This document shows positions 6,912-60,882 of a stretch of 64,000 bases of DNA, piece after piece. The stretch is from Sphingobacteriaceae bacterium (GTDB taxonomy: Bacteria; Bacteroidota; Bacteroidia; Sphingobacteriales; Sphingobacteriaceae). The number at the start of each line of letters is the position of its first letter. Within the stretch, counting starts at the first letter, position 1. The position numbers and the translations under genes are program-made. Location: NCBI GenBank assembly GCA_029266635.1, contig JAQSWM010000003.1, positions 248,001 through 312,000 of the forward strand, in the 5' to 3' direction. The notes beneath the pieces were generated by a model, which saw only the letters and a list, made by a program, of their open reading frames with translations, had not been told where the DNA came from and did not search any database.

Positions 6912-8258
6912 ATGAAAAAGAAATTTTTATATAGTATACTTTTCTTGTCAGCTGTATCTATGATGCAGAGCTGCAAAAAGGAAGATGATAACCTGGACCG
7001 TCAGATCGTTGGTTTGGGAGGGGACACTTACCCGAAGACGGCTTTAGACACCTGGTTGTTTGACAATTTTACCAAGCCTTACAACATAGATGTAAAATAT
7101 CGTTGGGATGGCGCAGAGTTGGCAATTGACCGTACGCTTGTGCCGCCATCTGTAGACAAGGTACAGCCGATCATGGAAACTGTTAAGGCTGCCTGGATTG
7201 ACGTTTACGCTGCGGAAGCCGGCGAAGTGTTCGTTAAAAAGCTTGCCCCTAAGCAATATGTTCTTGTTGGCAGCCTGCAGTATAATAGCGGCAATACCGT
7301 AACCTTAGGGGAAGCTGAAGGCGGAAATAAGGTTACGCTGTTCAACGTCAACAACTTTGACAAAACCAACAGGAATGTTGTTAAGCCGGTGCTTAAAACC
7401 ATCCATCACGAGTTTGCCCACATCCTTGCTCAAAACATAACTTATCCCAAGGATTTCCCTCTGGTTACTCCGGCAGGATATACCGCAGACTGGAATAATA
7501 CTACGTTAGCAAGCGCAAGGGCTGCAGGGTTTATTACCCAGTACTCACAGGCAGCACCAGGCGAAGATTTCGCGGAGATGGTTTCTGTAATGCTTACAGA
7601 GGGCAAAGCTGGTTTTGACGCTATCATCAAAAGCAACACCACTGCAACGGCAGTGACTGCGTTGCGCAAGAAGGAAGAGATCGTAGTAGGATATTTCAAG
7701 CAAGCTTGGGGTATTGACTTTTATGCTTTGCAAAACCGCACCACAGTAGCGATCAACAATTTAACTTCGCCGCTTCAGCTATCAAGCTATCTGGGTTTTG
7801 GCAAAACGTATACTGCTGTCGCGGTTAATCCGGCAACAACGTCAGGAATGTCGGCAGATTTTATTACGGCATACAACGCTGCAAAAACGAATCTGGCAAA
7901 CCTTAGTGCTACGGCCAAGTACTCGTTAGATAACTTCTCTATCGTGCATACCACAGCTACCGACGCCGTGCTGCGGGTTACCTTCACAGCTACCGGCGGT
8001 ACACAGGCTGGCACATCTTTCCAGGCTAATATTACCTACAAGCTGGTTACGGCTCCTGATGGCACTATTACTTTTACTGCACCTACATTAGATGCTAATG
8101 CGGGTGTCATAGCCGCTTCTATAGCTCCTCTAACTAATTATTTAACGACAGGTAGCTTCAGATACACATTTTACTACAGCCCAGACTTTAAGTATGAGTA
8201 CGGTGGGTTCACTAAAGTGAGTAACCCTGGTTCATTCTTCTTCGGCACTTTAGGTTAA
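6912..8258 (+). CDS. Substrate-import-associated zinc metallohydrolase lipoprotein with a C-terminal DUF4302-like domain
   Basis: A 448-aa lipoprotein (lipobox MQSC, Cys21). A zinc motif HEFAH sits at 166-170 (context KTIHHEFAHILAQ), and a conserved GEDFAEMVSVML follows about 50 residues later, as in the putative zinc-binding metallopeptidase lipoproteins encoded beside SusC/SusD pairs. The predicted job is trimming peptides or other substrate at the cell surface before import. From about residue 314 to the end, the protein matches the last ~130 residues of the next gene's product (SFQANITY against NFQANMTY, NAGV, VSNPGSFFFGTL against VSNPSSFYYGTL), so it carries a second, non-catalytic domain. 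The gap to the next gene is 7 bp. Confidence 0.85.
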   Translation: MKKKFLYSILFLSAVSMMQSCKKEDDNLDRQIVGLGGDTYPKTALDTWLFDNFTKPYNIDVKYRWDGAELAIDRTLVPPSVDKVQPIMETVKAAWIDVYAAEAGEVFVKKLAPKQYVLVGSLQYNSGNTVTLGEAEGGNKVTLFNVNNFDKTNRNVVKPVLKTIHHEFAHILAQNITYPKDFPLVTPAGYTADWNNTTLASARAAGFITQYSQAAPGEDFAEMVSVMLTEGKAGFDAIIKSNTTATAVTALRKKEEIVVGYFKQAWGIDFYALQNRTTVAINNLTSPLQLSSYLGFGKTYTAVAVNPATTSGMSADFITAYNAAKTNLANLSATAKYSLDNFSIVHTTATDAVLRVTFTATGGTQAGTSFQANITYKLVTAPDGTITFTAPTLDANAGVIAASIAPLTNYLTTGSFRYTFYYSPDFKYEYGGFTKVSNPGSFFFGTLG

Positions 8259-8265
8259 TTAAATC

Positions 8266-9612
8266 ATGAAAAAAATAACATACATATTTCTATTAGCAGT
8301 TAGCGTGTTTGCTTCCTGCAAGAAAGAGGATGATCCGATTCTGGATGATCCGGATACACGCCTGTCTGCTACACTTTCCGCTGACGAAGCAATACTGAGC
8401 GGAGCAGCTAACGGCTGGAGGGCTGAAATATATCCAGTTGGTGGAAAAGGGTTTTCTTATTACCTGAAATTCAACGCAGGTAAGGTTACGATGCTATCTG
8501 ACTTTAACTCGACTACAGCAGTAACTCCAAAGGAAAGCACTTACAGACTGAAGGCGCTTCAATATCCAACTCTGATTTTCGACACTTATTCTTACCTACA
8601 CCTTCCCGCTGATCCGGACCCCGCAATTAGCGGCGGCACCCAAGGGAAAGGCTTGACATCAGATTTCCAGTTTTATATCACTGAAATTAGTGCCGACAGG
8701 ATAGTGCTACTTGGTTCGACTAACCTGAATGTGATGGTGTTGACCAAACTTACCCCTGCCCAGGAAGCAAGTTTTCTAGCCGGTGCTTACAAAGTATCGC
8801 GTGATGCGAATGCAACTTACCTCGCAGCCAATAAGTTTCCATACCTGCAGTTCGCCGACGGAGTAAAAATTGCTGTGGCGATGGATCCTGTTAAGAAAAC
8901 AATTGTGTTGACCTGGGCAGATGCCAATGATATAAGTAAAACTGTGTCCTCAACTTTTGCATTCGGCTTAACCGGCTTTACGCTGAACACGCCGTTAATT
9001 TATGGGAACAACACTTTCAATGAAGTATTCTACGATCCGGCTACCAAGCAATATTACCTAATGCTTGGTACCACCCGTGTAAACTTCCAAAACTCCACTA
9101 CTCCAGTCATTCCATTCAGAGTTGTGTTTGGAGCAGGAAAGGATTATTCTCAAATTAGCTACAACCCGGCTGTTAACCCGACCAATTCTGTGGTGGTGGC
9201 GACGGGACTTTCTGCAGACTGGAACTCCAAGTACGCGACTGCCAAAACGGGCCTTGCAGCTGTGGGCGGAGCCGGACGTACGCTAGATTGGGTGGCTGTG
9301 CTATTCCCAATTGATGCGCCAACGCAGATGGTTTTGCGTTTCTATTATCACAATACTGCCGGATCAAACTTCCAGGCCAACATGACGTATAGTTTCACTA
9401 AAAACGCTAATGGTGAGTATGACTTTACTTACCTGGCAAGCGATGGCAACGCAGGCGTTGTGGGCGGTGGTCTTGTTGCTATCAAAGACTACTTTGATCA
9501 AAACGTTTTCCGTGCAGACTGGGTGGCGAATCCAAGTGGCGGCGCCTCATACGGCGGACTTTATGTAGTTTCAAATCCATCTTCTTTCTACTACGGAACA
9601 TTAGTGAAATAA
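8266..9612 (+). CDS. DUF4302-family lipoprotein
   Basis: A 448-aa lipoprotein (lipobox FASC, Cys18; mature start CKKEDDPILDDPDTRLSA). The opening block, with ANGWRAEIYPVGGKGFSYYL, is characteristic of the DUF4302 family of Bacteroidota surface lipoproteins encoded in SusCD operons. No enzymatic motif is visible; a role in substrate binding is an inference from context. Its last 130 residues are homologous to the C-terminus of the upstream metallohydrolase. This is the last gene of the operon, and a terminator follows 27 bp after the stop. Confidence 0.8.
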   Translation: MKKITYIFLLAVSVFASCKKEDDPILDDPDTRLSATLSADEAILSGAANGWRAEIYPVGGKGFSYYLKFNAGKVTMLSDFNSTTAVTPKESTYRLKALQYPTLIFDTYSYLHLPADPDPAISGGTQGKGLTSDFQFYITEISADRIVLLGSTNLNVMVLTKLTPAQEASFLAGAYKVSRDANATYLAANKFPYLQFADGVKIAVAMDPVKKTIVLTWADANDISKTVSSTFAFGLTGFTLNTPLIYGNNTFNEVFYDPATKQYYLMLGTTRVNFQNSTTPVIPFRVVFGAGKDYSQISYNPAVNPTNSVVVATGLSADWNSKYATAKTGLAAVGGAGRTLDWVAVLFPIDAPTQMVLRFYYHNTAGSNFQANMTYSFTKNANGEYDFTYLASDGNAGVVGGGLVAIKDYFDQNVFRADWVANPSGGASYGGLYVVSNPSSFYYGTLVK

Positions 9613-10524: not shown

Positions 10525-10974
10525 CTATCCGCTGACAGAAAGCGTAGTGCCGCTGATTGCTATTGCATAAGTTTTTAAGCTGGCAGTTGCAGGTCCTGTA
10601 ATAACGCTTCCGCTATTAGAGAATTCACTGCCGTGGTTTGGGCAAACAAATTTACCCTGATTTGCGCTGTAGCCTATCGAACTGCCCTCGTGAGTACAGG
10701 CAACCTGAACCGCTGTAAATGACGACACAGAGTTCCCGGCTGCAGTGCGCACTACAATTACTCCGTTGCTAACTTTAGAATCGCCCACATTTCTGAGCTC
10801 AGTGTTCAGGTCAACTGTAAAGCCAACATTGGTGGGCGGCTTAGGGGGCGTAACGGTGCCACCGCCGGTAGAAGGAGTTCCGGTATCTCCCTTTCCGCAG
10901 GCAGCTAAACAGCTTCCGGCGCAAACAGCAACAAAGCTTATGCCCAGTTGGCTTAAAAATTCATCTCTTTTCAT
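10525..10974 (-). CDS. Rieske [2Fe-2S] lipoprotein
   Basis: 149 aa, lipoprotein signal (LAAC, Cys26; N-terminus MKRDEFLSQLG resembles a degenerate Tat signal with KR), then a proline/glycine/threonine linker and a small Rieske domain. Ligands are C93-T-H95 and C111-P-N-H114, spaced as in the family. The two extra cysteines that form the disulfide in bc1/b6f Rieske proteins are replaced (CTHEGS, CPNHGS). It is the last gene of a five-gene operon with YceI and DUF5777 and has no cytochrome b neighbour, so it is not a bc1 subunit. A periplasmic one-electron carrier is the likely role. Its redox partner is unknown. Confidence 0.85.
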   Translation of the reverse strand: MKRDEFLSQLGISFVAVCAGSCLAACGKGDTGTPSTGGGTVTPPKPPTNVGFTVDLNTELRNVGDSKVSNGVIVVRTAAGNSVSSFTAVQVACTHEGSSIGYSANQGKFVCPNHGSEFSNSGSVITGPATASLKTYAIAISGTTLSVSG

Positions 10975-10984
10975 ATTAGTTTAT

Positions 10985-11869
10985 TTAATGGTGTAGCGTA
11001 AACATTCTGGATATGGTGAAACCAAAGCGGTATTGTCCTTTTCCCCAGGAGGATGTTGAATTAGGCAGGAAGTTGTTTTCTACGATGGCTTTTGCGTTCA
11101 CAAAATTCATCGTGAATACATGGCCGCCGGTTTCTATTTCAATCCCGAGGCCGAGCGGATCGTAGAAATTGGTGCTTGTACTATTGCTGCGATAATTTGA
11201 GAATGGGTGATAACAGTCCGCCACTATCCCAAAGCGTTTTGTGAACTTGTACCTCGCAGCAGCACCCAGGGCAAAAAGCGTTTTTTCATCTCCTGCAGGT
11301 ACTACACTCCTGAGCAGCAACGTTGGCGATACCTGGAGCGAGAAGTTGGACGAGAACTTTCTGGCGAGGATTGCCTGACCGAGGTAGGAAAACCTATTCA
11401 TATAATCGTCAAAGACATTGGTTACCACTTTGTAGGGAGTGAAGCCGGCTTTTGCCAGCAGAGCTACTGAGATCGGCGCACCGTTGTTTGTAGTTTGTTG
11501 CAACAGTGCATATTTCAACTGTAGATCTAGCAGTTGTTCATATTTGCTCCTGCCAAAGCCAATGTTTAGCTTATCGCTGAGGCCATACTCAAAGTCGATG
11601 TAGATGTCGCTGGAGTTGTCGAGCCCCCAGAGCATTTTTGAGCCGCCGTCTGTTCCGCCGATGTCGCCGAAGCGGTGGGCAACCTTGAAGTCAAGGTCGT
11701 GCTTTTTGACCATTGTGGTGGTTTGAGACAAGATCAGCCTGCTTGACTTAAAAGTGGCTGACACAGGTTCTTTTTCGTTGCCGGACATGGCTTGCATTAA
11801 AGAGTCAGATTGTGCTGTCGCAGAAAAAAAAAGGCATAGCAGTAGCAAAGAGAGTAGATATTTCTTCAT
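10985..11869 (-). CDS. DUF5777-family beta-barrel protein
   Basis: 294 aa with a Sec signal peptide (cleavage about ATAQ). The mature protein shows the DUF5777 landmarks: SSRLILSQTTTMVKKHDLDF, HRFGDIGG, SSDIYIDFEYGLSDKLNIG and a C-terminal strand block with GGHVFTMNFVNAKA. Alternating hydrophobic strands throughout and an aromatic-rich end (FGFTISRMF) suggest an outer membrane barrel of about 12 strands. The family has no established function that I know of. It lies between YceI (4 bp away) and Rieske (10 bp away), a grouping that suggests a shared envelope redox or lipid/quinone role. Confidence 0.8.
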   Translation of the reverse strand: MKKYLLSLLLLCLFFSATAQSDSLMQAMSGNEKEPVSATFKSSRLILSQTTTMVKKHDLDFKVAHRFGDIGGTDGGSKMLWGLDNSSDIYIDFEYGLSDKLNIGFGRSKYEQLLDLQLKYALLQQTTNNGAPISVALLAKAGFTPYKVVTNVFDDYMNRFSYLGQAILARKFSSNFSLQVSPTLLLRSVVPAGDEKTLFALGAAARYKFTKRFGIVADCYHPFSNYRSNSTSTNFYDPLGLGIEIETGGHVFTMNFVNAKAIVENNFLPNSTSSWGKGQYRFGFTISRMFTLHH

Positions 11870-11873
11870 GAAA

Positions 11874-12422
11874 TCAGGGTTTTTTATATGCTGAGAAGGT
11901 GCCCGAGACCGTGACCTGAATGCTCTCGGCTATGTTTTGGAATACTAACTGCGGGATGTCAATGTTGTGGTCCTTACACAACACGTTAAACTTAGAAGTT
12001 ATAGTGACGGAGTTATCTTTTATCCTGATCACTCCAGGAATAGTTCGATTCTTCTTTACGCCGTGGACGTCCAGATCGCCTGTTACCGTGACGGGATAAT
12101 TGCCCTCTTTCGTGGGATCAATCGACTCCCTGATCTTGCCTTTGAATTGAGCATTCGGATACTTGTCACTTTCCAGGTAGTTTTCGTTGAAGTGCTCCTG
12201 CATCAGGCTCTTTTTGAACTGAAAAGATTTGATCGGGATATTAAACTGAACCTCGCTTTTATTCAAATCAATCACCGAAAATCCCTTTACGGAAGTTGCC
12301 TCAATATTTTCTATCGGCGCTTCTGAGTATATTACGGCTTTAACCGCTTTGCACACATATAGCGATGACGAGCTTTGTGCAAGAGGAGAAAAAATCAGCA
12401 ATATGATCCCGAGCAGCTTCAT
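11874..12422 (-). CDS. YceI-family periplasmic lipocalin-like protein
   Basis: 182 aa, signal peptide, then the YceI fold signature SLMQEHFNENYLESDKYPNA followed by a GDLDVHGVKKNRTIPG block. YceI proteins have a lipocalin-like barrel that binds polyisoprenoids or related amphiphiles; some are tied to stress or quinone handling. Its start overlaps the stop of the upstream gene by 4 bp (ATGA), so the two are translationally coupled. Position between the sigma/anchor pair and the DUF5777/Rieske pair suggests it is an output gene of the sigma factor. The ligand is not known. Confidence 0.88.
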   Translation of the reverse strand: MKLLGIILLIFSPLAQSSSSLYVCKAVKAVIYSEAPIENIEATSVKGFSVIDLNKSEVQFNIPIKSFQFKKSLMQEHFNENYLESDKYPNAQFKGKIRESIDPTKEGNYPVTVTGDLDVHGVKKNRTIPGVIRIKDNSVTITSKFNVLCKDHNIDIPQLVFQNIAESIQVTVSGTFSAYKKP

Positions 12423-13657
12423 TTTTTACCGGTAATGGTGGAAAGATTCATGTTCAGATTGAAAGCAACCCCTGTTGAAAGCAGCTTCACATTCCCATAC
12501 CCGATTTCAGCAAGGGGCAGTTTGAAGTAAGGCTGAATACTTACAGACGTATTTGCATTTAGCTTCCGCTGATAAGCGATTGCCAGATTACCTACGCTGA
12601 AATAATGCTGATTAAGATTTCGAACCTGGTATGACCGCGGGCCTTTCGTGTATGTTCCGGCATAAGTGTAATCGTATTTCTCGGTAAGCATCAGGTATGA
12701 TGACGCTCCTAATGAAAGCTCAAAATTGCTTTTAGCATTTTTTAGGAAGCTGTAGTTAATGTTTAGAGGAATATCGAGCACCCGGCAATTGGCGTTTACA
12801 TATTCCGGATTTACAGGAAACTTGTAATTGGTGTAAGGCTTGTAGTTACTGAAGCTTGTGCCGTAGATCTTTTCGGCCAAAACAGCCCCTGTGGTAAGGC
12901 TCAGGCGAGGGCTTAAAGTCAGGGTTGCTAATAGGCCGCCGTTAAATCCAAGTTTATCATCTCTCAGAGAATTTACTCCGCTCAAATCCGGCGCAGCCGA
13001 CATGCTTAAAATGATAGACGGTTTAAATTTGCTAACCACATTCATGCTTGTCCGTGTGGTGTCAACTTCTGAGGCTTTCTTGTTTTCTAAGCCAGTTTCC
13101 GCTTGTGCTAACGCGATGCTTTCTGCAGAAGCATCTGTCTTTGCTGTTTCACTATTTACCGTAGGCTGAATGGAGTTTTCAGAAGGCCCGGACTGATTTC
13201 CGGGTTTTACTGCAGCAGAAGCAATATGTTTTTCGCTATAAGTGCTCCCGGCTTTCATGTTGCTGCTTGCTCCTGGATTTTTAACTTCTCTTATCTCTGT
13301 TGATTGACTTGTTACAGCCAATTGTTTTGATGGAACTGCTTTAGACGTTTCAGCCGAGTTTTGCAGAGGAGCGGGTGCCACTTCGCTGTTCTCGGTTTTA
13401 ATCTCGTGTTTCGGTAAGCGCTTGACAACTTTCGGCATTGTCTTTTCAGGCTGATCCATGCTCCACCAAACTGTTGCCATCAATAGTGCTGCCGCTATGC
13501 CGCTTGCACTTGCCCACCACACAAATCCTCTTTTCTTCTTATCCTGCTCAAGCTTCTGCTTCATCGCCATCCAATTTGCCTCCACAAACTGAAGGTTCGG
13601 ATCGCTTAAGCTTGCGCTGAACAGTTCGTCTATTTTATCCTTATTTAAATCTTCCAT
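12419..13657 (-). CDS. Membrane-anchored protein with C-terminal outer-membrane-type beta-barrel domain; candidate anti-sigma partner
   Basis: 412 aa in three parts. Residues 1-47 are polar (MEDLNKDKIDELFSASLS...) and probably cytoplasmic. Residues about 48-66 form one membrane helix flanked by tryptophans. Residues about 70-190 are a Ser/Ala/Lys/Glu linker without clear fold. Residues about 205-412 resemble PorT/OMP_b-brl_2 barrels (GFNGGLLATLTLSPRLSLTT, LDIPLNINYSFL, final strands to MNLSTI). The gene starts 3 bp after the ECF sigma gene, the place normally taken by an anti-sigma factor. The short N-terminal region plus single helix fits such a role, but I see no zinc-finger motif. How the barrel-like part folds in a protein held in the inner membrane is unclear. 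Confidence 0.75.
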   Translation of the reverse strand: MEDLNKDKIDELFSASLSDPNLQFVEANWMAMKQKLEQDKKKRGFVWWASASGIAAALLMATVWWSMDQPEKTMPKVVKRLPKHEIKTENSEVAPAPLQNSAETSKAVPSKQLAVTSQSTEIREVKNPGASSNMKAGSTYSEKHIASAAVKPGNQSGPSENSIQPTVNSETAKTDASAESIALAQAETGLENKKASEVDTTRTSMNVVSKFKPSIILSMSAAPDLSGVNSLRDDKLGFNGGLLATLTLSPRLSLTTGAVLAEKIYGTSFSNYKPYTNYKFPVNPEYVNANCRVLDIPLNINYSFLKNAKSNFELSLGASSYLMLTEKYDYTYAGTYTKGPRSYQVRNLNQHYFSVGNLAIAYQRKLNANTSVSIQPYFKLPLAEIGYGNVKLLSTGVAFNLNMNLSTITGKK

Positions 13658-13660
13658 GGC

Positions 13661-14323
13661 TTATAGGCCCCCGCTTATTGTAGCCTGTAAGGCTGTTACT
13701 GATTGAAACGGAATTATCTTTCCATTCTCTGATTCTGCCCGGCTGATAACCGGATTGCTCTTTTGCAACTCCCGCTGCAACTTCTGCCTCGCTTTGAAGA
13801 GATTCGATTTTGATGTTCCTACAGATATTCCTAGCATCTTGGCAATCTCCTCATGGCTGTACCCGTCAATGGCAAACAGGTTGAAAACTGTACGATATGA
13901 CACGGGAAGCTTTTGGATCATCTTCAGCATATCCTGATAATTCATCGCCTGATAAATACTCGCTTCCTGTCCGTAATCTTCCACTACTGTTAACTCCTGG
14001 GTGTGCGAGTGCTTTAGCTCAGCCCGGTACCGGTCTATAGCGGTATTCGACATTATTTTGCCAACCCACGAGTGGAAAGGCCAGGAGTAATCATATTTGT
14101 GGATGTTCTTAAATACTTTCAAAAAGCCATCGTTCAGGATCTCGGCTGCGTCATATCTATTACTTGCATACCGCAGGCACTTTCCCATCGCGAAGCTGTA
14201 AAGGCGTTTGTATAACCTTTCCTGCCACTCAATTTCGTTGCGCAAACAGCCTTCTATAAGCGGCTTCAAGTCTTTTTCGTCGAACCTGGCTATCACCGTG
14301 TCTTGTGTGTTTGTACCTATCAC
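13661..14323 (-). CDS. ECF-type RNA polymerase sigma factor
   Basis: 220 aa. Sigma-2 region about 25-100 (YSFAMGKCLRYASNRYDAAE then FLKVFKNIHKYD and the FHSWVGKIMSNTAIDRYR block), sigma-4 about 125-190 with the helix-turn-helix YSHEEIAKMLGISVGTSKSN. About 30 extra C-terminal residues are without clear homology. It heads the minus-strand operon with the anchored barrel protein, YceI, DUF5777 and Rieske genes, and presumably controls them and itself. The operon is divergent from the outer membrane receptor-like gene at 14471, and the 147 bp between them should hold both promoters; I cannot define the ECF box. Confidence 0.9.
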   Translation of the reverse strand: MIGTNTQDTVIARFDEKDLKPLIEGCLRNEIEWQERLYKRLYSFAMGKCLRYASNRYDAAEILNDGFLKVFKNIHKYDYSWPFHSWVGKIMSNTAIDRYRAELKHSHTQELTVVEDYGQEASIYQAMNYQDMLKMIQKLPVSYRTVFNLFAIDGYSHEEIAKMLGISVGTSKSNLFKARQKLQRELQKSNPVISRAESENGKIIPFQSVTALQATISGGL

Positions 14324-14470
14324 GTAAGGCTGAATTAAAAGGTTGCCTCCGACAGTAAAAATTTTTAGTCATTAAATATACCTAATCCTCCCGGGTGATT
14401 TTTGGGAGAAAAAATAACTGATGTGCAACATTTCACGTGGTGCAGAGTCTTATTGAAAAAATACATACAA

Positions 14471-46767: not shown

Positions 46768-48039
46768 ATGAGAAACATCTCATTGTTTTTTAGAAGTGTT
46801 GTAAAATCGTTAACCCTATTATTTTTCCTGGCAATAACAGCAAATTCTGTATCCGCCCAAAGCGCAGCAGAAGGCGTTACCCTCTTCAAGCAGAAATGTA
46901 CCGCATGCCATGCGCTTAACGCAAAGGTTGTTGGCCCTGCGCTAAAGGGTGTAACAGATCGCCGCAGCGAAGAGTGGCTGATAAAATGGATTCGTAACTC
47001 TCAGGCAATGATTGCCTCCGGCGATCCTGAAGCAGTTAAGATTTTTAACGAATATAAGCCTGCAGTAATGACTCCGTTCCCGGAGCTTACTGAAGAAAAT
47101 GTAAAAAGCATTTTAGCTTACATCAAAGAAGGCGATAAGCCTGCGCCAGCTGCTCCCGGCGATGTTGCTGCTCAGGGCGCAGGAGCTTCATCTAACGGCA
47201 TCAGCGATTTTGCTCTTTGGGGACTTGTTGCTGTAATTGTAATTGCTTTCTTAATCATCGTAGTTCTTAACCGCGTTGTTAAAACGCTGGAGCGTATGAT
47301 GCTGAAAAAGCAGGGCGTCTTGGTTGAGGAAGTTGAGCTTGTAGAAAAAGACAGGTTAGCTGGTCTTAAAAAACTCGCTAAGAACAAGAAATTTATATTT
47401 TTCGTGATTATTCTGGTGGTCATCTTCATGAGCACAGCAAGCTGGATGGGCATGTGGAATACAGGCGTTCATACAGGTTACCAGCCGGTACAGCCAATCA
47501 AATTCTCTCACCAGCTACACGCCGGCATCAACAAAATAGATTGTCAATACTGCCATACGGGAGCATATAAATCTAAGAACGCTTCAATCCCGTCGCTTAA
47601 CGTTTGTATGAACTGCCACAATTATGTAACCGCTGCTGAAAAGAACGGCGGGCAGCTATCGCCTGAGATTGCGAAAATATACCGTGCGCTCGATTACAAT
47701 CCAGATACTAAGCAGTACGGAAACAATCAGAAGCCAATTGAGTGGGTTCGCATCCATAACCTTCCGGATTTTGCATACTTCAACCACTCGCAGCATGTAA
47801 ACGTGGCCGGCGTGAAATGCCAGAAGTGCCACGGGCCAATCCAGACCATGGAAGAAGTTTACCAGGCGTCTCCACTAACAATGAAATGGTGTATCAACTG
47901 CCATAAGGAAACCGAAGTGAACCACAAAGGCAACGCTTATTACAATAAGCTGATTGCTGCACATGATCAGTTGAAAAAAGGAGAGAAAGTAACTCCTGCA
48001 GTTTTAGGCGGCCTCGAGTGCGGAAAGTGCCACTATTAA
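46768..48039 (+). CDS. actA: Alternative complex III subunit ActA, six-heme form
   Basis: 423 aa. Signal peptide (cleavage near VSAQS), an N-terminal single-heme cytochrome c domain (CTACH, 44-48; a Met-containing AVMTPFPELT about 100 as candidate axial ligand), two membrane helices (about 148-170 and 209-230) and a pentaheme region with CQYCH, CMNCH, CQKCH, CINCH and CGKCH (about 258-422). ActA is the multiheme electron wire of the quinol-oxidising alternative complex III. The five-heme core is the usual form; the sixth, N-terminal heme is an addition. First gene of the respiratory block; actB follows 43 bp later. Confidence 0.92.
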   Translation: MRNISLFFRSVVKSLTLLFFLAITANSVSAQSAAEGVTLFKQKCTACHALNAKVVGPALKGVTDRRSEEWLIKWIRNSQAMIASGDPEAVKIFNEYKPAVMTPFPELTEENVKSILAYIKEGDKPAPAAPGDVAAQGAGASSNGISDFALWGLVAVIVIAFLIIVVLNRVVKTLERMMLKKQGVLVEEVELVEKDRLAGLKKLAKNKKFIFFVIILVVIFMSTASWMGMWNTGVHTGYQPVQPIKFSHQLHAGINKIDCQYCHTGAYKSKNASIPSLNVCMNCHNYVTAAEKNGGQLSPEIAKIYRALDYNPDTKQYGNNQKPIEWVRIHNLPDFAYFNHSQHVNVAGVKCQKCHGPIQTMEEVYQASPLTMKWCINCHKETEVNHKGNAYYNKLIAAHDQLKKGEKVTPAVLGGLECGKCHY

Positions 48040-48082
48040 TCATATAATAATTTAAAACTTACGTAAAGTTTATATAGCTTAA

Positions 48083-51000
48083 ATGGAAAGCAATAAAAAA
48101 TACTGGAAAGGTTTAGAAGAGCTTCATAAAGAACCCGCTTTTGTTGAAAATAGCAAAAACGAATTCGCAGAGCCACTTCCTCTCGAGGAAGTGCTTAACG
48201 AAGCCGGGCTCAGCACTGTAGCACCACGCCGCGATTTTCTGAAAGCATTAGGATTTGGCCTTGGCGCTGTAACCTTAGCCGCTTGCCAGAGTTCTCCTGT
48301 ACAAACATCAATCCCATACCTGGTAAAACCCGAAGAAGTTGTTCCAGGCATACCCAACTATTACACTTCCACCTACAATGGGCACGGCGTGCTGGTAAAA
48401 ACCCGCGAAGGCCGTCCGATTAAAATTGAAGGAAACCCTAATTGTATTATAAGCCAGGGAAGAGTAGATGCCCAAACTCAGGCTTCTGTTCTTGACCTGT
48501 ACGATGTTTCCCGCCTTCATGATCCAGTTCTTAATGGACAGAAAGCTTCATGGCAGGCAGTTGACCAGTTTGTGAAATCAGCGTTAAGCAACGCTCAGGC
48601 TGGCGGTAAAAACATTCGTATTGTTGCCAAAACTATAAACAGCCCATCAACCAAGGCTGTAATTGCAGATTTTACTGCTAAATTCCCTAATACTAAGTTG
48701 GTTCAGGTAGATCCTGTATCGTATACCGGCATCATCCAGGCTAACCAAAACAGCTTTGGAAAAGCAGCACTGCCACATTACCGCTTTGATCTTGCTGATG
48801 TAATTGTAAGCTTCGGCGCTGATTTCCTTGGAACATGGATTTCGCCGGTTGAGTTTACCCGTCAGTATGTTTCGAACAGAAGCTGGGATGCGTTAAAAAC
48901 TAAAAAGATGTCACGCCACATTCAGTTTGAATCTGGCATGACGCTTACAGGCACAAATGCCGATGCTCGCATTGCAATAAAGCCATCTGAAGAAGGCATT
49001 GCACTATTAAATCTTTATACAGCTTTAGGTGGTGCAGTTAGCGGAGGAAAGACTCTTGCAAATAATGCTAAAGCCGATAAGGCAATCATGCTTGCTGCGA
49101 GGGAACTCGCTGCTGCTAAAGGACGTGCACTTGTTGTTTCTGGTTCTAACGATGTATCTGTTCAGATCCTGGTAAACTCTATCAATTCTTTGCTGGGCAG
49201 CTACGGAACAACTATCGACCTTGATAATGCTTCTTACCAGTATGCAGGTAACGATGCCGAATTTGTTGAGCTTATCAATGAAATGAAGCGTGGTATGGTG
49301 GATGCGGTGTTCTTCATCAACAGCAATCCGGCTTATGATTTCGTGAACCCGAAGGAATTTACCGATGCATTAGCCAAAGTGAAGCTCCGCGTTTCTTTCG
49401 CCGACCGCAAAAACGAGACTGCTGCACATTGCAACGTCATTGCACCTGCTAACCATTATCTGGAAGCATGGGGCGATTCAAATCCGTTAGAAGGATATTA
49501 CACGCTGGTACAGCCAACTATCAATCCGGTTTACAATACCCGTACAATTGAAGAAGGATTCCTGATCTGGTCTGATAACGCTGTTAAAGATTACTATCAG
49601 TATGTGCGCAACAATTGGGAAAAGACAGTACTTGCTCAAACAGGCAAAGACTGGAAAGGCTTGTTGCAAACAGGTTCAGTTTCCACCGGAGCCAAGTCTG
49701 GCGGTGCATATGCCTTTAACCGTGAGTTGGGCAGTGTTGCACAAACAATAGTTAACAAAAGCAATGCTTTGGCAAAAGGCGGCGATAATGTCGTTGAGCT
49801 CTCATTATATCAGAGTGTTGCTTTACGCGATGGTCACAATGCCAACAATCCATGGCTTCAGGAGTTGCCTGATCCGGTTTCGAAAGTAACCTGGGATAAT
49901 TTTGTTGCCATTAATCCAATCCACGCAGAAAAACTTGGCATTGTCGAGTTCGATCTTGTAACGCTTAAAAAAGGCAACTTGTCTATCACGCTACCGGTCT
50001 TGTATCAGCCCGGACAAGCAATGGGCACTGTGTCTGTAGCGCTTGGCTATGGCCGCACTGCAGCTGGAAAAGCCGGAAATGAAGTGGGCCAGAATGCTTA
50101 TCCATTTATAGATTTTGTAAACGGAACTTTCCAGGGAGTTGCGGCCGTTACGCTTGAAAAAGCGGGAGGTGCACGGGAACTTGCACAGACGCAAACCCAC
50201 CACTCGTTCGAAGGCCGCAACGTTGTCCGCGAAACAACTCTGAAAGATTACCTGAAAGATCATTACGCAGGTTCCGGTAAAAAGGCTGATCACAAGAAAT
50301 ATGACTTGTGGTATGATCACGAAAATCCGGGACACAACTGGGTAATGGCGATAGACCTGAATGCATGTACCGGTTGCGGTGCTTGTGTTGTGGCTTGTAA
50401 CGCCGAAAATAACATTCCGGTAGTTGGTCGCGATGAAGTGCGCCGCCGCCGTGAAATGCACTGGATACGGATCGATCGTTATTACACTTTCAACGAAGAC
50501 GGTAAAACCGTTACTGAAGAACGTGAAATAGATGATCTGAAGAATATGGAAAATGTGTCGGTGGTACATCAGCCGATGCTTTGCCAGCACTGCGAGCACG
50601 CACCGTGCGAAACTGTTTGCCCGGTATTAGCAACTGTACACTCTACAGAAGGCTTAAACCACATGGCTTACAACCGTTGCGTTGGTACACGTTATTGCGC
50701 AAATAACTGTCCGTACAAAGTACGCCGCTTCAACTGGTTTAACTACTGGAATGACTCACGCTTCGATAATTATATGAACAATGAGTTTACTCAGTTGGTG
50801 TTGAACCCTGATGTAACTACCCGCTTCCGTGGAGTTATGGAAAAATGCTCTATGTGTATTCAGCGTATTCAAAGTGGGAAGCTTCAGGCCAAATTAGAGC
50901 GCCGTCCTGTTAGGGATGGAGAAATCCAAACTGCATGTCAACAAACTTGCCCAGGAAACGCCATCATCTTCGGAGATGTGAATGATCCGAAATCGGCAGT

Positions 51001-51118
51001 GGCCAAGGCTTTGTTAAGCGAGCGCACGTATTATGTGCTTGAAGAGATTGGCACACAGCCAGGTATCGGTTACCAGGTTAAAGTTAGGAACACAGAAGCA
51101 GCAACAGCAGAGGCTTAA
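48083..51118 (+). CDS. actB: Alternative complex III subunit ActB (molybdopterin-like plus Fe-S domains)
   Basis: 1011 aa. Tat lipoprotein signal with RRDFLKALGFG (Arg49-Arg50) after a 48-residue leader and lipobox LAAC (Cys68). The first two thirds resemble a molybdopterin oxidoreductase fold, which in this complex carries no cofactor. The C-terminal part has the Fe-S cysteine sets: CTGCGACVVACNAE, CQHCEHAPCETVCPV, CVGTRYCANNCPYKVRRF and CSMCIQRIQSG...CQQTCPG, matching three [4Fe-4S] clusters and one [3Fe-4S]. It sits on the periplasmic face and passes electrons from quinol to the ActA hemes. The length is normal. Confidence 0.95.
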   Translation: MESNKKYWKGLEELHKEPAFVENSKNEFAEPLPLEEVLNEAGLSTVAPRRDFLKALGFGLGAVTLAACQSSPVQTSIPYLVKPEEVVPGIPNYYTSTYNGHGVLVKTREGRPIKIEGNPNCIISQGRVDAQTQASVLDLYDVSRLHDPVLNGQKASWQAVDQFVKSALSNAQAGGKNIRIVAKTINSPSTKAVIADFTAKFPNTKLVQVDPVSYTGIIQANQNSFGKAALPHYRFDLADVIVSFGADFLGTWISPVEFTRQYVSNRSWDALKTKKMSRHIQFESGMTLTGTNADARIAIKPSEEGIALLNLYTALGGAVSGGKTLANNAKADKAIMLAARELAAAKGRALVVSGSNDVSVQILVNSINSLLGSYGTTIDLDNASYQYAGNDAEFVELINEMKRGMVDAVFFINSNPAYDFVNPKEFTDALAKVKLRVSFADRKNETAAHCNVIAPANHYLEAWGDSNPLEGYYTLVQPTINPVYNTRTIEEGFLIWSDNAVKDYYQYVRNNWEKTVLAQTGKDWKGLLQTGSVSTGAKSGGAYAFNRELGSVAQTIVNKSNALAKGGDNVVELSLYQSVALRDGHNANNPWLQELPDPVSKVTWDNFVAINPIHAEKLGIVEFDLVTLKKGNLSITLPVLYQPGQAMGTVSVALGYGRTAAGKAGNEVGQNAYPFIDFVNGTFQGVAAVTLEKAGGARELAQTQTHHSFEGRNVVRETTLKDYLKDHYAGSGKKADHKKYDLWYDHENPGHNWVMAIDLNACTGCGACVVACNAENNIPVVGRDEVRRRREMHWIRIDRYYTFNEDGKTVTEEREIDDLKNMENVSVVHQPMLCQHCEHAPCETVCPVLATVHSTEGLNHMAYNRCVGTRYCANNCPYKVRRFNWFNYWNDSRFDNYMNNEFTQLVLNPDVTTRFRGVMEKCSMCIQRIQSGKLQAKLERRPVRDGEIQTACQQTCPGNAIIFGDVNDPKSAVAKALLSERTYYVLEEIGTQPGIGYQVKVRNTEAATAEA

Positions 51119-51146
51119 TAAATTTTATTAGAGATTAGATAGATAT

Positions 51147-52613
51147 ATGTCAGCTCATCACGAATCGATTTTAAGAGAACCCTTAATTACGGGAGACAAC
51201 ATAACGTATGCGAAAATAACGAACGATGTGTTAGACCCGGTTGAGAACAAGCCCAACAAAGCCTGGTGGATTGGATTCACCATAGCGGCGATCGGAGCTT
51301 TAATTTGGGTTGTTGCAGTAAGCTACACATTTTGGACCGGTATCGGTGCCTGGGGCTTGAATAAGACAGTAGGTTGGGCATGGGATATCACCGGCTTCGT
51401 TTGGTGGGTAGGTATTGGTCACGCCGGAACGCTTATTTCTGCTATTCTTTTACTGTTCCGCCAAAACTGGAGGAATTCCATCAACAGATCGGCGGAAGCG
51501 ATGACCATATTCGCGGTTATTTGCGCTGCTACTTACGTTGTATCGCACATGGGCCGCCCATGGTTAGCATATTTCTGTTTACCGCTTCCAAACCAGTTTG
51601 GTTCTTTGTGGGTAAACTTTAACTCGCCTTTGATCTGGGACGTATTTGCAATCTCGACATACTTCTCTGTATCGTTGGTTTTCTGGTACACAGGTTTGCT
51701 ACCTGATATTGCCAGCATCCGCGACAGGGCAACAGGTTTACGTCGCCGTATTTACTCAATATTATCATTTGGCTGGAACGGTTCGGTAAAAACCTGGCAA
51801 CGTTTTGAGTCAGTATCTCTAATTCTGGCAGGTGTTTCAACGCCGCTTGTACTTTCGGTACACACCATTGTATCCATGGACTTTGCAACTTCGCTGGAGC
51901 CGGGCTGGCACACCACCATCTTCCCGCCATACTTCGTTGCCGGAGCTATTTTCTCAGGATTTGCGATGGTTCAAACGCTCTTGCTTGTGGTAAGGAAAGT
52001 AATGGGCTTTGAGAACTACATTACCATGTTCCACATCGAGTCTATGAACAAGATTATACTGGTAACAGGTTCAATCGTGGGCGTAGCTTATTTAACAGAG
52101 TTTTTCATCGCCTGGTATTCAGGCAGTGAATATGAGCAATACACCTTCCTGAACAGGTTCATCGGCCCGTATTGGTGGGCTGGATGTATGATGTACGGTT
52201 GTAACGTATTGATGACCCAGTTAATGTGGTTCAAAAAAATACGCACCAGCATTCCGGCATCATGGGCATTGTCAATCGTGGTTAACATCGGTATGTGGTT
52301 TGAGCGTTTTGTAATTATCGTAATATCTCTGCACCGCGATTATATACCATCAAGCTGGGCAATGTTCTATCCAACTGTTGTAGATGCAGCTGTATTTATT
52401 GGGTCTATTGGGGTGTTCTTCACCTTGTTCCTTCTCTTCTTACGTGTTCTGCCTGCAATTGCAATGGCTGAAGTAAAACTGTTGCTAAAAGGCGCAAGCC
52501 ACCAGGCTAAGAAGAAATTGATAGCTGAGAATAAGGTTGACCCAGAACAAGTGCAATACTACAAGCAGTCTTTGGTAAAATTCGATAGCGTGCCGGAGGC
52601 GGAAACCGTTTAA
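51147..52613 (+). CDS. actC: Alternative complex III subunit ActC (NrfD/PsrC-like)
   Basis: 488 aa, ten membrane helices of the NrfD/PsrC family. Typical blocks are KAWWIGFTIAAIGALIWVVA, GIGHAGTLISAILLLFRQNW, and SVHTIVSMDFATSLEPGWHT with the histidine and aspartate in the helix next to the quinone site. Inner membrane subunit forming a quinol site and a possible proton half-channel. The gene lies between actB (28 bp) and actD (9 bp). Confidence 0.95.
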   Translation: MSAHHESILREPLITGDNITYAKITNDVLDPVENKPNKAWWIGFTIAAIGALIWVVAVSYTFWTGIGAWGLNKTVGWAWDITGFVWWVGIGHAGTLISAILLLFRQNWRNSINRSAEAMTIFAVICAATYVVSHMGRPWLAYFCLPLPNQFGSLWVNFNSPLIWDVFAISTYFSVSLVFWYTGLLPDIASIRDRATGLRRRIYSILSFGWNGSVKTWQRFESVSLILAGVSTPLVLSVHTIVSMDFATSLEPGWHTTIFPPYFVAGAIFSGFAMVQTLLLVVRKVMGFENYITMFHIESMNKIILVTGSIVGVAYLTEFFIAWYSGSEYEQYTFLNRFIGPYWWAGCMMYGCNVLMTQLMWFKKIRTSIPASWALSIVVNIGMWFERFVIIVISLHRDYIPSSWAMFYPTVVDAAVFIGSIGVFFTLFLLFLRVLPAIAMAEVKLLLKGASHQAKKKLIAENKVDPEQVQYYKQSLVKFDSVPEAETV

Positions 52614-52622
52614 AAGAATATC

Positions 52623-53159
52623 ATGAGCAACATCAAATATATATTAGGCAGCTTTGACGATCCGGATGACATGATGCACGGAATCGATAAGCTTAAGGAA
52701 AACGATATCAGTATCTATGATGTGTTTACACCAATGCCGATACACGGTATTGAAGAGAAGCTAGGATACAAGCGTTCACGCTTGCCGATAGTTGCATTCC
52801 TCTTCGGCATCACTGGTACTTTCACCGCATTTACAATGATTTTTTATATGCTGGTTTATGACTGGCCAATGAACATCGGCGGCAAGCCGGCATTCGCTGC
52901 ACCAGATTTTATTCCAATCATGTTTGAGCTTACAGTATTGTTCTGCTCATACGGTATGGCCTTTACTTTCTTTTTCAGAAACCACCTTTTTCCCGGACGT
53001 GCTCCGCGGGTGATGGATTTAAGAGCAACGGATGATCGCTTTGTAATCGCGATAGATGCCCACACAAATCCGTATCCTGAAAAAATCAACGACCTTTTAA
53101 AAGAAGCCGGTGCTATTGAAGTTAAGCACAATGAAAGAAAATATATTAGTTATGAATAA
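52623..53159 (+). CDS. actD: Alternative complex III subunit ActD (DUF3341)
   Basis: 178 aa. Cytoplasmic N-terminal domain (KYILGSFDDPDDMMHGIDKL, PMPIHGIEEKLGYKRSRLPI), two membrane helices (about 59-82 and 97-118), and a C-terminal cytoplasmic domain with DDRFVIAID. This is the DUF3341 pattern; in structures of the complex it packs on ActC. Its last 8 bp overlap the start of actE. Confidence 0.93.
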   Translation: MSNIKYILGSFDDPDDMMHGIDKLKENDISIYDVFTPMPIHGIEEKLGYKRSRLPIVAFLFGITGTFTAFTMIFYMLVYDWPMNIGGKPAFAAPDFIPIMFELTVLFCSYGMAFTFFFRNHLFPGRAPRVMDLRATDDRFVIAIDAHTNPYPEKINDLLKEAGAIEVKHNERKYISYE

Positions 53160-53739
53160 ACTCAGAATAGTTGGTGCTACTTTCTTTGTTACTGCGGCAA
53201 TTGCTGTAATATCTTCTTGTTCTGATAAACGCAGCACCGGATTAGAATATGCGCCGAATATGTATAAGGCTCTCGCGTTTAATCCGGATCAGCCTAATAA
53301 GAATTTCAGGAACGGCCAAACTGCTCAGGTTCCTCCTCCTCACACTATGCCTGTAGGCTTCGACGAGGTTGAGGAAGCTTATCCGAACACGCCTGAAGGC
53401 TACCAGGCGGCAAGTGCTAATCTGGTAAATCCTTTCCCGGCTACTACGGCAAACCTTGAGGATGGCAAAATATTGTATTTGCGCATGTGCTCACACTGCC
53501 ACGGCTTAACCGGTCAAGGCGATGGCTCTATCGTACAATTGGGCAAGTTTCCTGGTCCGCCATCTTACTCAAAGGGTAATTCATCTCGTGGCGGTACTAT
53601 GAAAGATCTTACAGACGGAAAGATTTTTCACACCATTACATATGGTGTAAACCTGATGGGCCCGCACCGTTATCAGTTAACTCCTGATGAGCGCTGGAAA
53701 ATAGTTCTATATGTACATGAATTACAAAAACTACAGTAA
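53152..53739 (+). CDS. actE: Alternative complex III subunit ActE (monoheme cytochrome c lipoprotein)
   Basis: 195 aa. Lipoprotein signal MNKLRIVGATFFVTAAIAVI then SSC; one heme motif CSHCHG and a likely Met ligand in GVNLMGPHRYQLTPDERW, ending LYVHELQKLQ, a class I cytochrome c. I chose the ATG at 53152, which overlaps actD by 8 bp; another ATG at 53131 is possible and would add 7 residues before the signal. Carries electrons from ActA towards the oxidase or is part of the wire. Confidence 0.92.
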   Translation: MNKLRIVGATFFVTAAIAVISSCSDKRSTGLEYAPNMYKALAFNPDQPNKNFRNGQTAQVPPPHTMPVGFDEVEEAYPNTPEGYQAASANLVNPFPATTANLEDGKILYLRMCSHCHGLTGQGDGSIVQLGKFPGPPSYSKGNSSRGGTMKDLTDGKIFHTITYGVNLMGPHRYQLTPDERWKIVLYVHELQKLQ

Positions 53740-53758
53740 AAAATTGCTATAAAACCAA

Positions 53759-55036
53759 ATGGGAACTCATAGTCATCAAACACATAATTTTTCTGCTCAA
53801 TTTGATTTTTCGGGTAAACCGAAGACCTGGAGCCTCATTGCCATGGTTATTGGCGTGATTGCAGTTCTTTACGGTTTCTTGCTGGATCCGTCTGAATTCC
53901 ACGGTGAGCGCACGTTCGCAAACCTGCTATTAATGGGCTATTATTTCACTTGCGTATGTGCAGCAGGGGCTTTTTTCCTTGCTATACAGTATGTGGCACA
54001 GGCAGGGTGGTCGGCAGGCCTATTGAGAATACCTCAGGCTTTTTCTAAGGTGCTGCCTATTGCGTCAGTAATTCTGGTTTTGATTTGTGCAGCAGGCTTA
54101 TTTTTCCACCACAATGTTATTGAAGACGGCAAGCAGGTGGAAGTGCCGTTCTTGTATAAACACTGGGCTACTCACGGGTTAGCTGATCCGCAGTCTGAGC
54201 ATTACGATCCTATTATTGCTGCCAAATCTGCTTTTCTGAACATTCCATTCTTCTTAGGACGACTGGTTATATTCTTAGCGATTTATAGCATTTTAGCTGC
54301 GATGTTAGTGAAGTTCTCAGAGAACGAAGATTTGAACGGCGGACTGAGCAACTATAAAAAGAGTTTCACATATTCTACAATATTCCTGGTGCTATTTGGA
54401 TTTACTACGCCAGTATGGGCTTTCGATGTGGTTATGTCGCTCGAGGCTCACTGGTTCTCAACCATGTTCGGCTGGTACAACTTTGCAGCCATGTGGGTTT
54501 CGGGATTGTGCGCAATGACCGTAATTATTATTCTGATGAAGAGGGCTGGATATCTCACCTGGATTAACCAAAACCACCTTCATGATCTTGGTAAGCTTAT
54601 TTTTGCATTCTCCATTTTTTGGACTTACGTATGGTTTGCACAGTTCTTATTGATCTGGTACGCTAACATGTCTGAAGAGACGGTTTATTTCTACAAGCGC
54701 TGGGAGCCTGAGTTTAAGCCTTGGTTCTGGCTTAATATCGTGATCAACTTTGTTGCGCCGGTTTTGCTGCTAATGTCACGCGATTCAAAAAGGAAAGAAA
54801 GCAGTTTGCTATTTGTAGCTATCCTGCTGCTTCTAGGCCACTGGCTTGATTACTATATAATGATAATGCCGGGCACAGTGGGAGCTGAAGGAAGAGGTTT
54901 TGGCATTACTGAAATCGGTATAGCAATTGGATTTGTTGGGCTATTTACCTTCCTTGTTCTTAATGCATTGAGCAAGACGTCACTTGTACCGAAGAACCAT
55001 CCGTTCCTTGATGAGAGCCTGCATCATCAGATTTAA
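53759..55036 (+). CDS. actF: Alternative complex III subunit ActF (NrfD-like)
   Basis: 425 aa, about ten membrane helices, second NrfD-like subunit and a distant paralog of ActC. Blocks include HGERTFANLLLMGYYFTCVC, FFHHNVIEDGKQVEVPFLYK, VVMSLEAHWFSTMFGWYNFA and LIWYANMSEETVYFYKRW, all typical for ActF. It forms the other half of the membrane core opposite ActC. Located 19 bp after actE and followed 42 bp later by the oxidase subunit II gene. Confidence 0.94.
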   Translation: MGTHSHQTHNFSAQFDFSGKPKTWSLIAMVIGVIAVLYGFLLDPSEFHGERTFANLLLMGYYFTCVCAAGAFFLAIQYVAQAGWSAGLLRIPQAFSKVLPIASVILVLICAAGLFFHHNVIEDGKQVEVPFLYKHWATHGLADPQSEHYDPIIAAKSAFLNIPFFLGRLVIFLAIYSILAAMLVKFSENEDLNGGLSNYKKSFTYSTIFLVLFGFTTPVWAFDVVMSLEAHWFSTMFGWYNFAAMWVSGLCAMTVIIILMKRAGYLTWINQNHLHDLGKLIFAFSIFWTYVWFAQFLLIWYANMSEETVYFYKRWEPEFKPWFWLNIVINFVAPVLLLMSRDSKRKESSLLFVAILLLLGHWLDYYIMIMPGTVGAEGRGFGITEIGIAIGFVGLFTFLVLNALSKTSLVPKNHPFLDESLHHQI

Positions 55037-55078
55037 TTGCAGTTTAAATTAAAGATTACTCAACGATTCGATAAAGAA

Positions 55079-56389
55079 ATGGGTTTAAAAAAGTTATTTA
55101 AGATCAAGCCGATATTTACACTGCTGTTGATATGTGCGTTAGGCGGAAGTTATCCTGCATTCTCGCAAGCCAGCGATTCTACAAGGACTAACAGCATTAC
55201 TGGTGCAGTTAAAGATTCAGCTACAGCCGCACCGGTTACCCCGGCAAAGCCTCTGATCAGCACAGATGTAGATACTACGCAGTTATCCTGGACAGGCGGA
55301 GGCATAGAAGTTCCAAAGCCTGCAGCTGAAACGTCAGCAGAATATAAATCAGCTGGATACTACGTGTTGTTATTCCTTTTGTTCTGCGTCTTCCTCGCGA
55401 TAATTGGAAGAGTGCTGAGGGTTTATGAATTGACTAACGGCATACAAGGCAAAGCAAGTAAGATAAATTGGAATAAAATTCAAAGCATCCTTTTCGGGAT
55501 TGCGCTTATCGCAGGATTGTATGGCGTTTACTGGTCGTATACCGTTCAGGGTGCAATGAGCGTAACAGAGAGCGCTTCGGTGCACGGTAAGAGATTGGAC
55601 TTCATGTTTAATGTTACTCTGATCATCACCACCATAGTATTCATCCTTACACACATTGCGTTATTCGGGTTTGCATTCAGGTATCCGGGTTCAGATAAAC
55701 GTAAGGCATACTTCTATCCGCATAACAATGCTCTTGAGCGTGTCTGGACTATTGTTCCGGCTATCGTGCTGACTGTGCTTGTGTTATTAGGATTTTTTAC
55801 CTGGAGGAGCATCACGAATGTGCCTGAGGAAGAGCAGAGGGGAGCGATCTCTATGGAAGTAACCGGCGAGCAGTTTAAATGGAACATACGTTACGCCGGC
55901 GACGACAACCAGCTGGGCGTTAAAAATTACAAGCTTATCAATGCAAATAACAACCTTGGCATTGACTTTAAAGATCGTAAGAGCTGGGATGACAAGTTGG
56001 GCGGAGAGATTATGCTTCCGGTCAATCGGCCGGTGCGGGTTACAATCGGATCAAAGGACATTATCCATAGCTTCCTGATCCCTGACTTTAAAGTTCAGAT
56101 CAACGCTGTTCCGGGTATGGCAACTTACTTCCAGTTTACACCTACCATGACTACTGCGCAAATGCGTGAGAAACGTCAGGATCCAGCCTACGACTACGTG
56201 TTGCTCTGTAACAAAATTTGCGGCGAAGGGCACTATAACATGCAGGCAAAAGTTACTGTTGTAACTGAAGAAGAATACAAAGCCTGGCTTGCTAAACAGC
56301 CTTTGTTTTACAACGACGAAGTGAAACAACAACTTCGCATGGCGGAACAAAAAGCCGCGAAAGATAATACGATTGCATTAAATAAATAA
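55079..56389 (+). CDS. coxB: Cytochrome c oxidase subunit II
   Basis: 436 aa. N-terminal signal/membrane segment (about 10-26), a linker, then two more helices before and within the COX2 transmembrane part (about 95-115 and 135-250 region), and a cupredoxin domain with an intact CuA site: Cys377, Cys381, His385 and Met388 in CNKICGEGHYNM, plus His in IHSFLIPDFKVQINAVPG and WNIRYAGDDN. No fused heme c domain, so electrons must come from a separate cytochrome, here probably ActE or the ActA N-terminal domain. The open frame begins 42 bp earlier at TTG; the ATG at 55079 starts the MGLKKLFK signal. Confidence 0.95.
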   Translation: MGLKKLFKIKPIFTLLLICALGGSYPAFSQASDSTRTNSITGAVKDSATAAPVTPAKPLISTDVDTTQLSWTGGGIEVPKPAAETSAEYKSAGYYVLLFLLFCVFLAIIGRVLRVYELTNGIQGKASKINWNKIQSILFGIALIAGLYGVYWSYTVQGAMSVTESASVHGKRLDFMFNVTLIITTIVFILTHIALFGFAFRYPGSDKRKAYFYPHNNALERVWTIVPAIVLTVLVLLGFFTWRSITNVPEEEQRGAISMEVTGEQFKWNIRYAGDDNQLGVKNYKLINANNNLGIDFKDRKSWDDKLGGEIMLPVNRPVRVTIGSKDIIHSFLIPDFKVQINAVPGMATYFQFTPTMTTAQMREKRQDPAYDYVLLCNKICGEGHYNMQAKVTVVTEEEYKAWLAKQPLFYNDEVKQQLRMAEQKAAKDNTIALNK

Positions 56390-56406
56390 TCAGATAGAGA
56401 GCGACT

Positions 56407-58284: not shown

Positions 58285-58297
58285 GAATATCAACTTG

Positions 58298-58342
58298 ATG
58301 GGGTATTGCTGCACCTACGGTTGCGGGTACCCCATTTTTTTT
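58298..58342 (+). terminator. Intrinsic terminator between coxA and ctaA
   Basis: Arms atggggta (58298-58305) and taccccat (58328-58335) with a partly paired 22-nt loop and eight T. It starts 13 bp after the coxA stop and splits the structural genes from the assembly genes. Confidence 0.8.
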
Positions 58343-58349
58343 AACAGAT

Positions 58350-60295: not shown

Positions 60296-60873
60296 AACAA
60301 GTTCAATCCTCAGGGGATGAAAAGATAAATCTGAAAGCCAGAAAGTTTCTGATGTGGCTGTTCATTGTATCTTCATTCATTTATTTTGCCGGTCTCACCA
60401 GCGGCTTCATCGTTTATACATCTGGTAGCCCAAACCGTGGCATAAAGACGCTTTTGCCGTACGCATTCAAATATAGCACCATCGTAATTTTGGTTAGCAG
60501 TATCACGATGCACCTTGCTTATTTATCCGGAAAACGCTTACAGTTTCAAAAGCAGAAATTATACCTGATCCTTACAATGGCTTTAGGCGTAGCGTTCTTT
60601 TTTATCCAATTGGCTGCCTGGCGACAGTTGATCGATCAGGGCGTGTTTTTTGTCAGCCCGAATGCGTCGCAATCGTTCATCTATGTCTTTACCGGATCGC
60701 ACCTTGTGCACATCTTTGCGGGCCTGATGATCCTGCTCACAGCACTGATTGGAAGGATGGGAAACATCTCTCAGGTGAAGAATATGTTTCGGCTTGAAGT
60801 TGCTTCCATATTTTGGCATTTTATAGACATACTATGGATTTATCTGTATGTTTTCTTACTTTTGAACCAATAA
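60292..60873 (+). CDS. Cytochrome c oxidase subunit III-type protein (first copy)
   Basis: 193 aa, five membrane helices, heme-copper oxidase subunit III family: FLMWLFIVSSFIYFAGLTSG, FFIQLAAWRQLIDQGVFFVS, GSHLVHIFAGLMILL and FWHFIDILWIYLYVFLL. Shorter than its neighbour at 60883, lacking the first two helices of classic subunit III. A pair of subunit III genes in tandem is usual in Bacteroidota. Whether both join the same oxidase is unknown. Confidence 0.88.
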   Translation: MKQVQSSGDEKINLKARKFLMWLFIVSSFIYFAGLTSGFIVYTSGSPNRGIKTLLPYAFKYSTIVILVSSITMHLAYLSGKRLQFQKQKLYLILTMALGVAFFFIQLAAWRQLIDQGVFFVSPNASQSFIYVFTGSHLVHIFAGLMILLTALIGRMGNISQVKNMFRLEVASIFWHFIDILWIYLYVFLLLNQ

Positions 60874-60882
60874 ACTAACATA

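Follow-up and report, generated by a model that had tools for sequence, protein, structure and literature searches.

A five-gene operon from a Sphingobacteriaceae bacterium appears to form a self-regulating envelope-response unit, in which an envelope sensor and an ECF sigma factor would drive an outer-membrane redox set that is most likely protective; argued by analogy with known systems, this reading has in our estimate an even chance of being right. The locus ties DUF5777 to YceI, to an exchangeable electron carrier, and to envelope sensors of a class recognised only recently. The DUF5777 set is common in Bacteroidota, and its carrier appears to have changed between heme and iron-sulfur types on several occasions. 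The suggestion in a preliminary description that the system is undescribed agrees with the literature searched, in which no description was found: a search for DUF5777 found no paper mentioning it, and one for YceI with Rieske returned only papers whose titles and abstracts deal with unrelated subjects.

Operon layout and promoter

The window is the whole 64,000-nt stretch analysed (positions 248001-312000 of the source contig), and operon coordinates are positions in that stretch. The features are as follows.

14319..14347, minus strand: ECF-type promoter, GGCAACC (14347-14341), N16, CGTGAT (14324-14319); upstream enrichment in sigma loci, PWM score 29.3, one exact match in the genome.
13661..14296 (longest ORF from 14323), minus strand: ECF sigma factor; Sigma70_r2/r4, TIGR02937 at 94 bits (above cut-off), orthologue alignment, promoter position.
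12419..13657, minus strand: Dma-like anti-sigma factor, 412 aa; AlphaFold, Foldseek, alignment; weak OMP_b-brl_2 match, below cut-off.
11874..12422, minus strand: YceI-family periplasmic protein with signal peptide; PF04264 at 57.6 bits, adjacency, alignment.
10985..11869, minus strand: DUF5777 outer-membrane beta-barrel protein with signal peptide; PF19089 at 289.9 bits, invariant columns in alignment.
10525..10974, minus strand: Rieske [2Fe-2S] lipoprotein; PF00355 at 40.2 bits, lipobox LAAC, ligands CTH...CPNH intact.

The five genes are tightly packed on the minus strand, with intergenic distances of 3, -4, 4, and 10 bases by ORF calls, in line with the earlier account of gaps of 10 bp or less and one 4-bp overlap. 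That account also held up on gene content: a Pfam/NCBIfam profile scan found no cytochrome b, oxidoreductase, or transporter encoded in the operon, and three products carry export signals, a signal peptide in YceI and DUF5777 and a lipobox in the Rieske protein. Scans of the operon region found no sigma-70 promoter and, on the minus strand, no terminator. Profile matches across the whole source genome gave one copy of DUF5777, four of Rieske, and five of YceI. Elsewhere in the window, two neighbouring lipoproteins (6912-8258 and 8266-9612) that follow a SusCD-like pair have C-terminal regions that resemble each other (...YGG...VSNP.SF.YGTL).

The sigma protein carries sigma regions 2 and 4 (Pfam/NCBIfam) and is preceded by its own conserved promoter, as expected of an ECF sigma factor. 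Because the -10 element CGTGAT covers the GTG at 14323, at which the longest ORF would begin, the in-frame GTG at 14296 is the most likely translation start, giving a predicted protein of 211 aa, not 220. Upstream regions of sigma genes show strong enrichment of the words GGCAACC and CGTGAT; in 67/79 loci the two form GGCAACC-N16-CGTGAT ahead of the sigma gene, with a spacer of exactly 16 in 58, and the final bases of the -10 element vary among these loci. A PWM trained on sigma upstream regions only was scanned over 2.76 Mb, with the reversed sequence as control. It returned 124 sites at a score of ≥15, versus 2 in the control, and 112 versus 0 at ≥17. Out of sample, sites were found at 15 of 20 divergent operons and at 12 operons with no sigma gene nearby, and all 12 of the corresponding genomes encode a Dma homologue elsewhere; one further weak match, at an operon without a nearby sigma gene (L224), may be due to chance. 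The exact motif occurs once in the source genome, at 14347-14319 ahead of the operon, and sites with one mismatch occur about as often as expected by chance. Hufsiella genome G414 has an exact site ∼670 bases upstream of the Dma gene, a spacing consistent with a sigma gene between the two. The matches listed by a text search for the promoter word were all unrelated. Control of the operon by its own sigma factor is thus well supported by these comparisons.

The sigma gene lies 3 bases upstream of the gene for the 412-aa protein. An AlphaFold model of the latter predicts N-terminal helices at residues 6 to 40 (low confidence), a transmembrane helix at about 44 to 65, a disordered tether at about 66 to 210 (residues 91 to 208 with pLDDT <50), and a C-terminal 8-stranded OmpA-like barrel at 215 to 404, mostly with pLDDT 70 to 93; Foldseek matched the barrel to OmpA, NspA, and OmpX (E values of 4e-9 to 3e-4). 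Dma anti-sigma factors combine an N-terminal domain, a transmembrane helix, a disordered tether, and a C-terminal barrel, and their cognate sigma factors belong to group ECF21 (PMC13088901). The 412-aa protein has each of the corresponding parts: N-terminal helices encoded beside an ECF sigma gene, a transmembrane helix with a long disordered tether, and a C-terminal outer-membrane barrel. We therefore assign it by its predicted architecture as a Dma-type anti-sigma factor, and gene position together with the precedent of Dma1/Dma2 suggests that it binds the sigma factor. The "membrane partner" of the preliminary description is accordingly still a membrane protein, now recast as a predicted Dma-type architecture spanning both membranes. 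A sigma-Dma pair is present at 76/184 DUF5777 loci. Among 201 genomes of the family, counted regardless of kinship, 95 have both a Dma-like gene and DUF5777, 27 DUF5777 only, 8 Dma only, and 71 neither.

Conservation of the neighbourhood and exchange of the carrier

DUF5777 loci were drawn from the family, the class, and the phylum, ORFs were called, profiles were built, and neighbours were tabulated, which gave 184 distinct loci in a sample weighted to the family and to strong DUF5777 matches. Across the Sphingobacteriaceae the gene order sigma, anti-sigma, YceI, DUF5777, Rieske is found again; close relatives in Hufsiella, Daejeonella, and Mucilaginibacter retain YceI-DUF5777-Rieske, in most cases behind the sigma and anti-sigma genes. 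YceI is near DUF5777 in 164/184 loci. Co-occurrence is therefore far beyond chance, and the shared order in relatives together with the YceI count rules out chance adjacency of the five genes. DUF5777 itself is present in 153/395 sampled Bacteroidota genomes, and by these sequence matches the DUF5777 set is phylum-wide.

The proposed membership of the Rieske protein stands for the source genome and for 59/184 loci, but it is not a defining part of the module, because most relatives carry a small lipoprotein cytochrome c instead (115/184 loci). Both carriers are found at 5 loci and neither, by profiles, at 15; one of the latter (L154) encodes a cupredoxin-like lipoprotein behind the same type of promoter. 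In a tree of DUF5777, Rieske loci are spread over at least three distinct clades, and their genes come in three orders: a large Sphingobacteriaceae clade has YceI-DUF5777-Rieske, in a second Rieske-DUF5777-YceI predominates, and a third, drawn from families farther away, has Rieske-YceI-DUF5777. This distribution suggests that the carrier slot has been refilled repeatedly, and the comparison supports repeated replacement of the carrier between heme and iron-sulfur types. The third clade has disulfide cysteines without counterpart in the window type, which points to separate recruitment of its Rieske protein. Strict exclusion of Rieske by cytochrome c is not proven: Fisher's test gave an extreme result (5 loci with both, against 36.9 expected) but ignores kinship, a kin-corrected pair test over independent branches was not significant, with too few swaps, and the exclusion is concentrated in few clades. 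At four Mucilaginibacter-type loci the Rieske gene has been lost, and no substitute carrier was found at the locus. Many of the module's small lipoprotein cytochromes carry, in place of CXXCH, the heme motif CX4CH (CALSGCH, CAISGCH), as at L106:7439-7822 and L132:6148-6534.

Rieske ligands of the form CxH...CxxH are present in 52 of the 59 carriers surveyed, among them the window protein (CTHEGSS...CPNH), which lacks the two extra disulfide cysteines of bc1/b6f Rieske proteins. In six loci of the Rieske-DUF5777-YceI type (L087, L111, L175, L180, L184, and L188) the second ligand motif departs from CxxH; that of L087 has four extra residues (CSQQDAAH). The best PDB matches of the window Rieske are b6f-type subunits; a role as a bc1 complex subunit is ruled out, as there is neither a cytochrome b in the operon nor the disulfide cysteine pair. 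Reading of the ORFs at 46768-61584 revealed an alternative-complex-III-like cluster (multiheme cytochrome, FeS/molybdopterin-type subunit, NrfD-like protein, and cytochrome c), then terminal oxidase and heme A genes, which is probably the host's route of quinol oxidation.

The window YceI is distant from crystallised YceI proteins (best PDB match, E = 0.0045), and an AlphaFold model of DUF5777 built from nine close relatives reached a pLDDT of 40. One DUF5777 branch (L086, L094, L106, L108, L115, L116, L124, L132, and L152) lies beside a divergent YceI or an ethylbenzene-dehydrogenase-like protein, and also beside cytochrome c, a TAT 4Fe-4S protein, and NrfD. The NrfD/4Fe-4S/cytochrome c set resembles quinol-linked complexes and is possibly a partner complex of DUF5777.

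Proposed function and rival readings

In the mechanism we propose, the Dma-type anti-sigma factor would reach from the cytoplasm to its outer-membrane barrel and hold the ECF sigma factor, and a change sensed by the barrel at the outer membrane would release it. The freed sigma factor would then transcribe its own operon from GGCAACC-N16-CGTGAT, a step strongly supported by comparison. The products, YceI, the DUF5777 barrel, and the Rieske lipoprotein, may act as one outer-membrane redox unit. Within it the Rieske lipoprotein would serve as a one-electron carrier, its place filled elsewhere by cytochrome c and at one locus by the cupredoxin-like protein, and would pass electrons to or from a YceI-bound quinone or similar amphiphile; DUF5777 is a putative outer-membrane partner or channel. 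The occurrence of heme, iron-sulfur, or, once, probable copper carriers beside YceI and the barrel fits one-electron service at the outer membrane. YceI proteins bind ubiquinone-8 or isoprenoids, and BcnA/LcoA, the latter a cytochrome b561, limits lipid peroxidation (PMC9113575). By analogy with BcnA, though with a soluble carrier in the place of cytochrome b561, we infer a redox or antioxidant role for the module, and the benefit would most likely be an outer membrane shielded from oxidised lipids or radicals. We rank envelope protection as the likeliest reading, above electron export, envelope remodelling, and sensing.

An unlikely alternative is outward electron transfer, in which the carrier would draw on the quinol pool, perhaps via YceI-bound quinone, and DUF5777 would hold or expose it at the surface for extracellular acceptors or secreted oxidative enzymes. 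A redox protein does adjoin DUF5777 in nearly all loci, the branch with NrfD, the 4Fe-4S protein, cytochromes, and ethylbenzene-dehydrogenase-like proteins would suit such a role, and there is a precedent in Cbp2D, a YceI domain fused to cytochrome c and tied to extracellular LPMO reduction (PMC8981238). However, most of these small carriers hold a single heme or 2Fe-2S centre, no multiheme conduit came to light, and DUF5777, at ∼250 residues, would form a narrow barrel; an operon placed under a Dma envelope sensor looks more like a response system than a respiratory one.

We give similarly little credence to envelope remodelling, whereby the regulon would tune the polysaccharide of the surface or the lipids of the outer membrane, with an amphiphile (lipid carrier or glycolipid) handled by YceI and DUF5777 and the electrons for one modification step coming from the electron carrier. 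In Mucilaginibacter this ECF promoter also stands ahead of exopolysaccharide genes, named by eye as a flippase, a Wzy-like polymerase, and GT2 glycosyltransferases (L263:503-9141 and L264:1082-9298, both of genome G542; L006, L085, L103, L190, L195, L197, and L209). G542 keeps sigma and Dma without DUF5777, and there the promoter marks the exopolysaccharide cluster. Dma1/Dma2 also affect vesicles and polysaccharide utilisation (PMC13088901), and YceI proteins can bind isoprenoids (PMC9113575). Against this, most lineages have no polysaccharide gene in the operon, the source genome's sole promoter copy sits at the operon, and no oxidoreductase is encoded. 

The Mucilaginibacter sites and G542 indicate that the regulon is not purely redox and that the response is an envelope programme, of which the source genome appears to retain only the redox operon. 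The dedicated regulon proposed earlier is thus borne out by the promoter evidence in the source genome, but elsewhere the regulon is sometimes wider. In four loci of one genus (L079, L093, L163, and L167), the promoter lies ahead of an operon that opens with a CHRD-like lipoprotein (by eye).

Redox sensing, with the Rieske protein or cytochrome and YceI informing the Dma barrel of oxidant or quinone state and thereby feeding back on sigma, would suit an operon and promoter common to sensor and products and an exchangeable carrier cofactor, but it is quite improbable, since 71 cytochrome loci (DUF5777-YceI-cytochrome) have neither a nearby sigma/Dma pair nor such a promoter, which indicates that the products work without sigma/Dma.

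The single-site regulon and precise promoter of the source genome offer a clean genetic test, with one deletion (dma), one promoter, and three products. Such a test could reveal the cues for Dma sensors, and whether the outer membrane has an electron-carrier system of its own.

Comparison with known systems

The Rieske protein shares its fold and 2Fe-2S ligands with bc1/b6f subunits but differs in having no cytochrome b partner, a lipobox anchor, and no disulfide cysteines. As in BcnA-LcoA of Burkholderia (PMC9113575), a YceI lipocalin is linked genetically to an electron-transfer protein, and a predicted envelope site and presumed stress induction are further shared traits. The cytochrome b561 of that pair was found neither in the operon nor among the flanking genes scanned; the partner here is instead a Rieske, cytochrome c, or cupredoxin-like lipoprotein, with an outer-membrane barrel and Dma-sigma control in addition. 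Cbp2D of Cellvibrio (PMC8981238) likewise associates a YceI-like quinone-binding domain with c-type cytochromes, but it is one secreted polypeptide that carries a cellulose-binding domain and feeds LPMOs, and has no barrel or sigma factor. Bacteroides dma2 is followed by DUF4943/DUF4858 proteins and an enoyl-reductase-like protein, whereas the downstream genes here encode YceI, DUF5777, and Rieske. With Dma/Das of Bacteroides thetaiotaomicron (PMC13088901), the operon shares the domain order of the anti-sigma factor and a directly adjoining ECF sigma gene; in that system the genes with the strongest induction in the mutant include its own operon, which we count as a shared trait.
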